In this document: positions 27,671-31,213 of the stretch, piece by piece
How the letters are laid out: each line of letters opens with the position of its first letter
How positions within the stretch are numbered: position 1 is the first letter of the stretch
Assembly: GCA_009694085.1 (NCBI GenBank)
Contig: SHVW01000018.1
Location: 1 to 34,214, forward strand
DNA: 34,214 bases
Direction of reading: 5' to 3'
Origin: Alphaproteobacteria bacterium
GTDB lineage: Bacteria > Pseudomonadota > Alphaproteobacteria > SHVW01
Notes under the pieces: generated by a model
Databases searched by the model: none
What the model saw: the letters and a program-made list of their open reading frames with translations, nothing else
What the model was told of the DNA's origin: nothing
Translations under genes and position numbers: made by a program

Positions 27671-28234
27671 TCAGGGGCTCCAGGTGAAATGGGCGGGCAG
27701 ATCGGCCAACCCCGGCAGTTTGCGGTCCTTGTCCGAAAGAATTGCCTTATCGGGCACAACCGGCCAATCGATACCGACGGCTGGGTCGTTCCAGAGAAAG
27801 CCGCGCTCATGCTCGGGGGCGTAGTAATCGGTTACCTTGTAAACCACCTCGGTATCGGGCTCCAACGTGCAATAGCCGTGGGCGAAACCAGCGGGCACCA
27901 GGATCTGGTTCCACGCCTCGGCGCTGATGCGCGCGCCGACCCACTTGCCGAAACTCCGCGAGCCCCGGCGGATATCCACGGCGACGTCGAAGATGGCGCC
28001 GCGGGTGACCCGAACCAGCTTGGCCTGGGCCATGGGCGCGATCTGAAAATGCAGGCCGCGCACCGTGCCCGGCTCCGCCGAGGACGCGTGGTTATCCTGG
28101 ACGAAATCGAGATCGATTCCCGATGCCGCAAAGGCCTTGCGGCTATAGGTTTCGGAAAAGAAGCCGCGCCGGTCGCCGAACTTGGCAGGCGTGACAATCT
28201 TAACTTCAGGAATCTGGGTATCGACGACCTTCAT
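27671..28234 (-). CDS. rfbC: dTDP-4-dehydrorhamnose 3,5-epimerase
   Basis: The protein has 187 residues from ATG 28234. It shows the RmlC cupin pattern: GDRRGFFSETYSRKAF, FVQDNHASSAEPGTVRGLHFQ (with catalytic His), KLVRVTRGAIFDVAVDIRRGS, ILVPAGFAHGYCTLEPDTEVVYKVTDYYAPEHERG and the closing NDPAVGIDWPV. It epimerises C3 and C5 of dTDP-4-keto-6-deoxyglucose. It is the first gene of the minus-strand operon, after the divergent intergenic region. The ribosome site is weak: AGGGG lies 12 nt before the ATG. Confidence 0.97.
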   Translation of the reverse strand: MKVVDTQIPEVKIVTPAKFGDRRGFFSETYSRKAFAASGIDLDFVQDNHASSAEPGTVRGLHFQIAPMAQAKLVRVTRGAIFDVAVDIRRGSRSFGKWVGARISAEAWNQILVPAGFAHGYCTLEPDTEVVYKVTDYYAPEHERGFLWNDPAVGIDWPVVPDKAILSDKDRKLPGLADLPAHFTWSP

Positions 28235-28266: not shown

Positions 28267-28296
28267 CCTATAACATGGCCGCTACCGGCCCGGCAA
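28267..28296 (-). promoter_or_regulatory. candidate promoter of the rfbC-led operon
   Basis: On the minus strand, TTGCCG (28291-28296) is followed after 18 nt by TATAGG (28267-28272), or after 17 nt by TTATAG. Each box matches the sigma-70 consensus at about four of six positions. It lies 33 bp before the rfbC ATG, and its -35 box falls inside a 12-bp dyad. Alphaproteobacterial promoters are often this loose, so it is only a candidate. Confidence 0.35.
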
Positions 28297-28301
28297 CTTC
28301 C

Positions 28302-28311
28302 GGGCAATTGA
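28302..28311. repeat. 10-bp direct repeat, left copy (candidate target-site duplication)
   Basis: GGGCAATTGA abuts the left terminal inverted repeat of the candidate MITE. An identical copy is at 28457-28466. Confidence 0.7.
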
Positions 28312-28456
28312 TAGGGGAATCGCTTGAAGACTCGGGAAACTAGATTGTTCGGCTGGGGTGACAATCCGAGGTAGGTAAACGGGGCACCGCAACAGGCTCG
28401 GACGTAAAGACCTCACATCGCAGATCACGTATTGAGCCGTTCAAGCGATTGCCCTG
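28312..28456. mobile_element. candidate 145-bp MITE-like insertion (non-coding)
   Basis: The left end TAGGGGAATCGCTTGAA (28312-28328) matches the reverse complement of the right end, CAGGGCAATCGCTTGAA (28440-28456), at 15 of 17 positions, including 11 contiguous bases. Both ends touch perfect 10-bp direct repeats, as expected of a target-site duplication. The interior has no ORF. It has two small adjacent hairpins: GATTGT/ACAATC (28343-28348/28361-28366) and TCCGAG/CTCGGA (28365-28370/28397-28402). There is no transposase, so it would move only in trans. I cannot assign a parent IS family; a 10-bp duplication would fit IS4-like elements among others. The alternative is a long structured RNA, but that does not explain the flanking direct repeats. 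Confidence 0.65.
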
Positions 28457-28466
28457 GGGCAATTGA
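28457..28466. repeat. 10-bp direct repeat, right copy (candidate target-site duplication)
   Basis: GGGCAATTGA follows directly after the right terminal inverted repeat and is identical to 28302-28311. The downstream TTGACA box begins within this copy. Confidence 0.7.
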
Positions 28467-28492
28467 CACCAAGGGTTGCCGGGCCGATGCTT
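28463..28492 (+). promoter_or_regulatory. candidate promoter of the kinase/regulator genes
   Basis: A perfect TTGACA (28463-28468) lies about 100 bp before the kinase ATG. The -10 is poor: GATGCT at 17 nt spacing or ATGCTT at 18 nt. The -35 spans the right end of the direct repeat, so before the insertion it would have had a different upstream context. Confidence 0.35.
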
Positions 28493-28570: not shown

Positions 28571-31213
28571 ATGTCGCGCTTTGGCAAGATTTCGGTCAAG
28601 TTGCCGCTCGCGGTCGCAGCCTCGGCGCTCGTGATCGGTGTGGCAATTGCTGCCATCCTCATTCCGATCACCCGAACGGCCATTCATGCCGCCGCCCGCG
28701 AAGAACTACAAGCGACCCAGGCAAGGAACCGCGCGCAGGTCGCGGAGTTCGCACGCCAGCTGGAGATCGAGGTAATCGATGGCGCGCGTCGACCCGCCGT
28801 CAGGTCGATGTTGGTTTCGTTGAGCGATCTCTGGTCCCGCATGTCCGGCGAGGAGCGCCGGGCGACGGCGACGCGCTACACCGATCACAACCCATTACCC
28901 CCTAACGCGCGTGCCGGTCTTGCCGATGCCGGCGATGGCGGGGGCTACAGCTCGCTGCACCGCCTCAACCACCCTGCGATCGCGAGTTGGGCGCAGCTTC
29001 ACGGCTTCGATGACGCCATGCTGGTGACCCCGGAAGGCGACGTCGTCTATTCCGTGGCCAAGGAGGCGGATTTTTTCGGCAATTTGTTGCTCGGTCGATT
29101 TCGCGAAGAAGGAGCGGCCATGGCATTCGCCGAAGCCATGGCGCGCTACACGGCGGGGAAGGTAACATACGTCGATTTCACCAAATACGAGCCCATTGGG
29201 TTCAAACCGGCGGCGTTCCTGGCCGTCCCCATCGCCGGTGACAACGAAGGCGTTATGGCTGGCGTTCTGGTCATCCGCGTGCCGATCGACCGCCTGAATG
29301 CCGTTATGACGAGCACCATCGGCATGGGCATGACGGGCGAGGCCTATCTCGTCGGTCCCGACCGGCGTTTGCGTACCGATTCGCGCTTTCAGCGCGGACA
29401 GATCCTGAACGCGACGGCCATGTCCGCCGGCATCATCGCGATCTTGGTCGGCTTGCTGGCCGTGCTTTATGCACGGACCATCACGCGACCGTTGGATGCC
29501 ATAATCGAGGCGATGGCCGCCCTCAGCACCGGCGACCGCGCGGTCGCCGTGCCCCATCTCCGCCGTAAGGACGAGATCGGCGCCATGGCCGGCGCGCTCC
29601 AGGTGTTCCGCGGCGCGCTGATCGAAGCCGACCAACTGGCCCAGCAGACCCGCGACAACGAGGCGTGGTTGCGCGCGATCCTGGATTCGAGCCCGGTCGG
29701 CATCCTGGTCGCGCGCGAGGGCGGCAGATTCGTATACGCCAATGCCGGGTTGGCCGGCATGCTGGGCATGTCGCGCGACCAGCTTCTCCAATCCCACGCG
29801 GCGGACATCTACCTCAACCCCGCCGACCGCGCCATCTTCCTCAAGCGCATTCGCGCCGACGGCAGCGTGCGCGACTGGTCGTTCGCGTTCCGCCGCGCCG
29901 ATGGCTCGACCGGCTGGGCGTTGTTGAACTCGCAGGTCGGCCAGTTCGAAGGCGAATCCGTCTATTTCTCCTGGTTGTTCGACGTGACCCGAAGCAAGGG
30001 CGCGGAAGACGAATTGCGACGCATCACCTTCGCCATGGAGAACGCGCCGCAAGGCGTCGTCTGGTTCGATCCCGAGGGCCGTATCGTCGAAGCCAACGCC
30101 AAGGCGCATGCGATGCTTGAGTACCGGCCCGGCGATATCGCCGGTCGGCCCGTGGGCGCCATCGGTCAGGGGCTTGACGATCGTGTGTATCTCTTGATTT
30201 GGGACGCCGTGAAGGGGCGTACGGAGGACAAACCCAGCGAACAAATCTTCATCCGTGCCGATCGCAGCACGCTGCCGGTCGAGACATTGACCAAATTTAT
30301 CGCCTTCGGCGGGCAAGAATATCTGTGCACGTATTTCCAGGACATCACGAAGCGCAAGGAGGCGGAGATCAAGGCGGCAAAAGAAACGGCGGAGGAGGCG
30401 ACCAAGGCGAAATCGTCTTTCCTGGCGATGATGAGCCGCGAAATCCGCACGCCCATGAACGGCGTGATGTCGATGGCGGAGATGCTGGACCAGACGAAGC
30501 TGACGGCGGACCAGCGCTCGATGTCGTTGGTCATTCGCGCGTCGGCGCAGTCATTGCTGACGATCATCAACGACATCTTGGATTTTTCCAAGATCGAAGC
30601 GGGCAAGCTGGATATCGAGAGTGTGCCGTTCTCGCTGCTGGAAGTCGTCGAAGGCGCGGGCGAGTTGATGGCGGCGCGCGCAGAAGACAAAGGGATTGAG
30701 CTGATCGTGGACATCGATCCCACGATTCCCGACGGCTTGATCGGCGACCCCACCAGACTGCGGCAAATCATGCTCAACTTGACGGGCAACGCCGTCAAAT
30801 TCACCGAGACCGGCCATGTCGCCCTGCGGGTCGCGCCCTTGCGCGGCGATGCCGGGCGCCTTCGCTTCGAGGTGACCGACACCGGCATCGGCCTGACGGA
30901 AGAACAGCGCGCCAAGCTATTCCAGCCTTTTGTCCAGGCCGATACATCGACCGCGCGCAAATTCGGTGGCACTGGGCTCGGCCTATCGATTTGCCATCGG
31001 CTTGTGGAGATGATGGGGGGCAGATTGGTACCACCTCGATCGCCGGACAGGGTTCGACTTTCTGGTTCGAACTGCCATTCGGACGCGGCACCGCGACGCC
31101 GAACGGTCCGGAAATCCCGATGTCGGATGCCCGCATCGTCGCCGTGGGATTCGCCGGTGCGGCGCGCGGCGCGCTCGGCCATCACCTGGCCGGCGCCGGC
31201 ATCGAGGCGGTAA
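28571..31213 (+). CDS. N-terminal fragment of hybrid kinase: sensor, HAMP, PAS-PAS, HisKA, partial HATPase
   Basis: 880 residues as written, from ATG 28571 (MSRFGKISVKLPLAVAASALVIG) with AAGG 8 nt upstream; the track's TTG 28463 start has no such site. The first membrane helix is about residues 10-33. A periplasmic Cache-like sensor follows (FDDAMLVTPEGDVVYSVAKEADF, GMGMTGEAYLVGPDRRLRTDSRF). The second helix is about 284-304 and HAMP about 303-355. PAS one begins near 366 (WLRAILDSSPVGILV) and PAS two near 486 (ITFAMENAPQGVVWFDPEGRI). HisKA is about 612-680 with Arg623 in place of His. The ATPase part has N-box LRQIMLNLTGNAVKF, G1 EVTDTGIGL and G2 GGTGLGLSI. The last 66 or so residues are out-of-frame tail. 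Confidence 0.75.
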   Translation: MSRFGKISVKLPLAVAASALVIGVAIAAILIPITRTAIHAAAREELQATQARNRAQVAEFARQLEIEVIDGARRPAVRSMLVSLSDLWSRMSGEERRATATRYTDHNPLPPNARAGLADAGDGGGYSSLHRLNHPAIASWAQLHGFDDAMLVTPEGDVVYSVAKEADFFGNLLLGRFREEGAAMAFAEAMARYTAGKVTYVDFTKYEPIGFKPAAFLAVPIAGDNEGVMAGVLVIRVPIDRLNAVMTSTIGMGMTGEAYLVGPDRRLRTDSRFQRGQILNATAMSAGIIAILVGLLAVLYARTITRPLDAIIEAMAALSTGDRAVAVPHLRRKDEIGAMAGALQVFRGALIEADQLAQQTRDNEAWLRAILDSSPVGILVAREGGRFVYANAGLAGMLGMSRDQLLQSHAADIYLNPADRAIFLKRIRADGSVRDWSFAFRRADGSTGWALLNSQVGQFEGESVYFSWLFDVTRSKGAEDELRRITFAMENAPQGVVWFDPEGRIVEANAKAHAMLEYRPGDIAGRPVGAIGQGLDDRVYLLIWDAVKGRTEDKPSEQIFIRADRSTLPVETLTKFIAFGGQEYLCTYFQDITKRKEAEIKAAKETAEEATKAKSSFLAMMSREIRTPMNGVMSMAEMLDQTKLTADQRSMSLVIRASAQSLLTIINDILDFSKIEAGKLDIESVPFSLLEVVEGAGELMAARAEDKGIELIVDIDPTIPDGLIGDPTRLRQIMLNLTGNAVKFTETGHVALRVAPLRGDAGRLRFEVTDTGIGLTEEQRAKLFQPFVQADTSTARKFGGTGLGLSICHRLVEMMGGRLVPPRSPDRVRLSGSNCHSDAAPRRRTVRKSRCRMPASSPWDSPVRRAARSAITWPAPASRR

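Follow-up and report, generated by a model that had tools for sequence, protein, structure and literature searches.

Non-coding insertion between rfbC and a sensor kinase gene

If a short non-coding segment between two divergent genes is mobile DNA, then it should recur at unrelated loci with its own target duplications. In contrast, if it is native to the locus as a structured RNA or a cis-regulatory leader, its repeats would be part of the structure. This question is raised by a 145 bp segment in the window (the whole 34,214-nucleotide stretch of DNA that was analyzed). On one side is rfbC (27671–28234, minus strand), the first gene of the rhamnose operon, which encodes dTDP-4-dehydrorhamnose 3,5-epimerase (Pfam PF00908, E = 3.4e-69). 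On the other is a gene for a HAMP/PAS sensor histidine kinase (28571–31213, plus strand; Pfam HATPase_c, HisKA, PAS, and HAMP). The genome G001 has an rfbC ortholog (77% identical) that adjoins the best match to the kinase, in the same divergent arrangement as in the window, and no element lies between them.

The segment occupies positions 28312–28456 (plus strand) and is too short to hold a transposase gene. As read directly from the sequence, both of its ends are abutted by an exact 10 bp duplication, GGGCAATTGA (28302–28311 and 28457–28466, plus strand). Its terminal inverted repeats, TAGGGGAATCGCTTGAA (28312–28328, plus strand) and reverse-complemented CAGGGCAATCGCTTGAA (28440–28456, minus strand), are identical at 15 of 17 positions. 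Further out lies a perfect 12 bp inverted repeat, with a left arm CGGCCCGGCAAC (28286–28297) and a right arm GTTGCCGGGCCG (28475–28486), both given on the plus strand. An earlier note on this DNA had reported these repeats, ends, and outer dyad and had proposed a MITE; when the sequence was reread, its coordinates were correct to the base.

Copies of the element in the same genome

The available assembly of this genome comprises 3.08 Mb in 141 contigs, is 71% complete, and is broken at repeats. A BLAST search of it with the 145 bp sequence found further copies, 97–100% identical, at approximately ten loci, which with the window copy makes approximately eleven. Their alignment defines a full-length element of 196 bp. 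Complete copies are present on contigs C135, C13, and C120, and a copy on C45 lacks its right end. Two insertions are each split across a contig break (C65 with C38, and C91 with C23), the left part of the element is found at the ends of C6, C87, and C93, and C31 carries a decayed right part. Many copies thus fall at contig breaks, as is expected of recent repeats.

Target duplications are present at four further insertions. Two are exact (10/10) and span the contig breaks C65/C38 (TCCATGGCCG) and C91/C23 (CGGGCCATTC), and two match at 9 of 10 positions (C135, GCCACAATGT/GCTACAATGT; C13, GTGCTCCCGC/GCGCTCCCGC). A duplication was also sought at the C120 copy, where none was found (4/10). The matching duplications on separate contigs are independent evidence for transposition with a 10 bp stagger. 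Because the element recurs at approximately ten other loci, several with their own 10 bp duplications, the direct repeats and ends in the window are not a chance arrangement. The multiple copies, the 10 bp duplications, and the absence of the element from the orthologous G001 locus all support the proposal of a MITE.

The window copy is an internal-deletion derivative of the 196 bp element. It equals the full-length consensus minus exactly 51 bp between two 9 bp repeats, CGCTTGAAG, and is otherwise identical to it; the full-length element has two copies of this repeat 51 bp apart, and the window has a single copy at the deletion junction (28321–28329, plus strand). Because exactly 51 bp are gone between the repeats and nothing else has changed, either the 51 bp were lost in place, by slippage or recombination, or the copy transposed as an already shortened form.

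Two minor features were seen near these copies. A solitary element end without a partner, TAGGGCAATCGCTTGAA, is located on contig C119 (14390–14405; L070) and is probably a remnant. A short dyad, CCTCATGGTTCGACAAGCTCACCATGAGG, lies just upstream of the C6 copy, approximately 11 bp from the insertion point (L028), and looks like a dispersed repeat.

In a sample of 384 further genomes of the class, among them G001 as the only one of the same genus, the element had no match, and none was found in plasmids. An exact 31-mer and a 22-mer of the interior had no match in GTDB genomes or viral contigs. In the G001 intergenic region, TCCGGGCGATCGACTC aligns with TCCGGGCAATTGACAC, which is the single target copy with its flanks (shuffle p = 0.006), and TCCGGGCGATCGAC is aligned with the single target copy itself; the region is too diverged to provide an exact empty site.

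Probable promoter and outer dyad at the insertion site

Alignment with G001 points to TTGCCG-17-TTATAG (28268–28296, minus strand) as the probable promoter of the rhamnose operon, with the -35 at 28296–28291 and the -10 at 28273–28268. The corresponding stretch of G001 reads TTGCCT-17-CTATAG, so that the pattern common to both is TTGCC(G/T)-17-(T/C)TATAG. A scan of the intergenic region for the sigma-70 consensus returned nothing above threshold, TTGCCG-17-TTATAG itself scoring below it, and no promoter was recognized for the kinase gene. The -35 is inside the left arm of the outer dyad. Because the conserved -35 and -10 are entirely outside the insertion, and 15 native bp are retained upstream, the rhamnose core promoter is probably intact and undisturbed. 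The earlier suggestion that the insertion moved promoter elements on the rhamnose side is therefore not borne out, and the effect on this promoter would be small. The element is new, but it is ordinary mobile DNA that inserted just upstream of a promoter.

The outer dyad is real: a perfect 12 bp inverted repeat arises anywhere in the 336 bp intergenic stretch in 0.45% of mononucleotide shuffles, and the element is situated in its loop. It was not found in the G001 intergenic region or elsewhere in its own genome. The view that it is an older symmetric operator is unproven, given its absence from G001 and the fact that the element's targets do not generally have such a dyad. A related explanation, which would add to the MITE reading rather than replace it, is that the MITE inserted because of the hairpin or dyad and now serves the two operons as a regulatory switch. 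The location of the element in the 22-nt loop of a perfect 12 bp dyad speaks in favor of this. However, a spanning dyad (shuffle p < 0.05) is present at only 5 of 28 insertion sites of this MITE, of similar MITEs, and of ISAs1 family elements, and among the other copies of this MITE only C135 has one, weakly (p = 0.04). With the rhamnose core promoter probably intact as well, a dyad-targeted switch is considered unlikely.

Assignment of the ends to the ISAs1 family

The earlier note recognized no parent insertion sequence for the MITE. Its ends and duplication length now place it with the ISAs1 family (NCBIfam NF033564). No intact copy of the exact driver turned up in its own genome. Five genomes of the class contain between them nine intact ISAs1 copies that are flanked by exact 10 bp duplications, the same length as those of the MITE, and have ends of the form CAGGG(C/G)(A/T)ATCG, the two ends of an element differing at base 6, where one has C and the other G. 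The MITE ends differ from each other likewise: TAGGGGAATCGCTTGAA has G at base 6, like one end (CAGGGGAATCG) of the intact ISAs1 elements, and CAGGGCAATCGCTTGAA has C, like the other. For instance, a 1222 bp ISAs1 element (L118), whose transposase scores 384 bits against NF033564 (cut-off 70), has CAGGGCAATCGCTTGAA at both ends, and is thus identical to one MITE end at 17 of 17 positions; no target duplication was seen at this copy. The other MITE end matches the L118 end at 15 of 17 positions, with T rather than C as its first base and the G at base 6 that most ISAs1 elements have at one of their ends.

Pieces of ISAs1 transposase genes are present in the window's own genome (C9, C40, C84, and C36), and most of them sit at the end of a contig. 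Beside them are the IS ends CAGGGTAATCGGGTAAA (C9), CAGGGGAATCGGGTGAA (C40), and CAGGTGAATCGCTTCAGG (C84 and C36). On C32 and C112, the IS end CAGGGCAATCGCTTCAGG is followed by the start of an ISAs1-like protein and has 14 of 14 terminal bases in common with the MITE. No intact ISAs1 element with exactly the MITE's ends was seen in this incomplete and repeat-broken assembly, only fragments.

ISAs1 family insertion sequences are approximately 1.2 kb and carry a transposase gene, whereas the MITE is 145–196 bp, carries none, and has an interior unrelated to the insertion sequences seen. Beyond the ends, this interior has no similarity to any ISAs1 element compared, subterminal DNA included. Therefore, the claim made here is restricted to ISAs1-type ends and does not include an origin of the interior in an ISAs1 element. 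A simple deletion derivative of any insertion sequence seen was ruled out, the interior being unlike ISAs1 beyond the ends.

The MITE could instead have been mobilized by a transposase from outside the ISAs1 family, one whose elements have similar ends. Transposases of other families of the DDE_Tnp_1 type (PF01609) are indeed present in the genome, and the failure to find the exact driver intact would fit with this. However, the sequences near the PF01609 matches have only a poor likeness to the MITE ends (approximately 4 mismatches in 16), and ISAs1 elements agree with the MITE in end sequence, in how one end differs from the other, and in duplication length. A driver from another family is thus regarded as quite improbable.

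Overall, it is very likely that the element is a non-autonomous MITE with ISAs1-type ends, present at approximately eleven loci and taken to be moved by an ISAs1 transposase from elsewhere in the genome. Such a transposase, encoded by an insertion sequence, would bind the 17 bp ends, move the 196 bp element in trans, and insert it at a 10 bp staggered cut, giving rise to the 10 bp duplications. The element spread in this lineage recently enough for its copies to be 97–100% identical still. The copy between the divergent rfbC and sensor kinase genes lost its 51 bp in place or before insertion. Both the action of ISAs1 in trans and the choice of any one insertion sequence as the source of the transposase are inferred. 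Counting against this explanation are the lack of an intact matching insertion sequence in the genome, the end that begins with T, the C120 copy without a duplication, and the unmatched interior.

A structured RNA or regulatory leader native to the locus is scarcely credible: the whole region does fold strongly (z = -5.9), but the source of this is the terminal repeats and outer dyad, the interior (28329–28439) folding no more stably than its shuffled versions (z = +0.2 on one strand and -0.3 on the other), and there was no match in an Rfam search, no element at the orthologous G001 locus, and, to the contrary, dispersed copies with target duplications beside unrelated genes. The proposal that interior hairpins add a small RNA or regulatory element is likewise not supported by the interior folding or the Rfam search.

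Small elements with the same ends in other bacteria

The 17-mer CAGGGCAATCGCTTGAA was found in many GTDB genomes among the matches listed; by our own arithmetic, approximately 30 chance matches would be expected in 257 Gb. The loci analyzed from these listed matches hold at least 21 convergent pairs of CAGGGCAATCGCTTGAA-like ends less than 400 bp apart, where an end could carry as many as two or three mismatches. Eleven of the 21 pairs are flanked by a 10 bp duplication (9/10 or 10/10) and two by a 9 bp duplication (9/9 and 8/9), and the remaining eight have none or could not be judged. The duplication-flanked pairs measure 117–263 bp, and their interiors form unrelated groups. Small elements of this kind, mostly with 10 bp duplications, are found in Azospirillum (L129, L133, L135, L149, L160, L166, and L197), Thiofilum flexile (L141), Deltaproteobacteria bacterium Smac51 (L128), a Chloroflexi bin (L130), and a Magnetospirillum bin (L172). 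Other, single CAGGGCAATCGCTTGAA-like ends adjoin ISAs1 transposase genes, and one ISAs1 element of 1230 bp (L154) is bounded by ends of this kind and flanked by an exact 10 bp duplication. In the five whole genomes counted, there are approximately 20–45 such ends per genome versus 0–1 for a reversed control pattern.

Because unrelated elements of 117–263 bp in other proteobacteria and in Chloroflexi share these ends, MITEs with such ends seem to have arisen repeatedly. We lean towards a broader reading, in which ISAs1 transposases repeatedly yield MITEs with unrelated interiors and a nearly invariant 17 bp end in several phyla, one transposase group driving a large and mostly unnoticed class. 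That small, otherwise unrelated elements of distant bacteria carry the same end is the main point of interest. At the locus itself, three features assign an unnamed MITE to one particular transposase family: its end sequence, the difference between its ends, and the duplication length.

A different end, CAGGGCAATCGGGTGAA, occurs in the genome of the Magnetospirillum bin (G389) as pairs 173–184 bp apart (C129, 2703–2886; C204, 5565–5737). These are probably a further MITE type that matches the other group of ISAs1 ends, which the window's genome has at C40.

Comparison with described elements

MITEPye1 of Paracoccus yeei is likewise small and non-coding, with terminal repeats and target duplications, is mostly intergenic, and was assigned to an insertion sequence family by its ends (PMC11578231). 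According to that paper, its ends are those of the IS1182 family, and the likeness to the present element is one of description. Another non-coding, multi-copy MITE with size variants (178–235 bp) is Chunjie of Geobacter uraniireducens, which is likened here by its description in a review (PMC10969869). No description of an ISAs1-type MITE was found in the literature searched, which lay outside ISfinder and most subscription journals. According to an oligonucleotide table (PMC3969353), a 77 bp inverted repeat upstream of the capsule locus of Porphyromonas gingivalis begins with CAGGGCAATCGCATTTGAA, which resembles some ISAs1 ends (for instance CAGGGGAATCGCATTTGAA of L101). Judging from these terminal bases, the 77 bp inverted repeat may be an ISAs1-type MITE.
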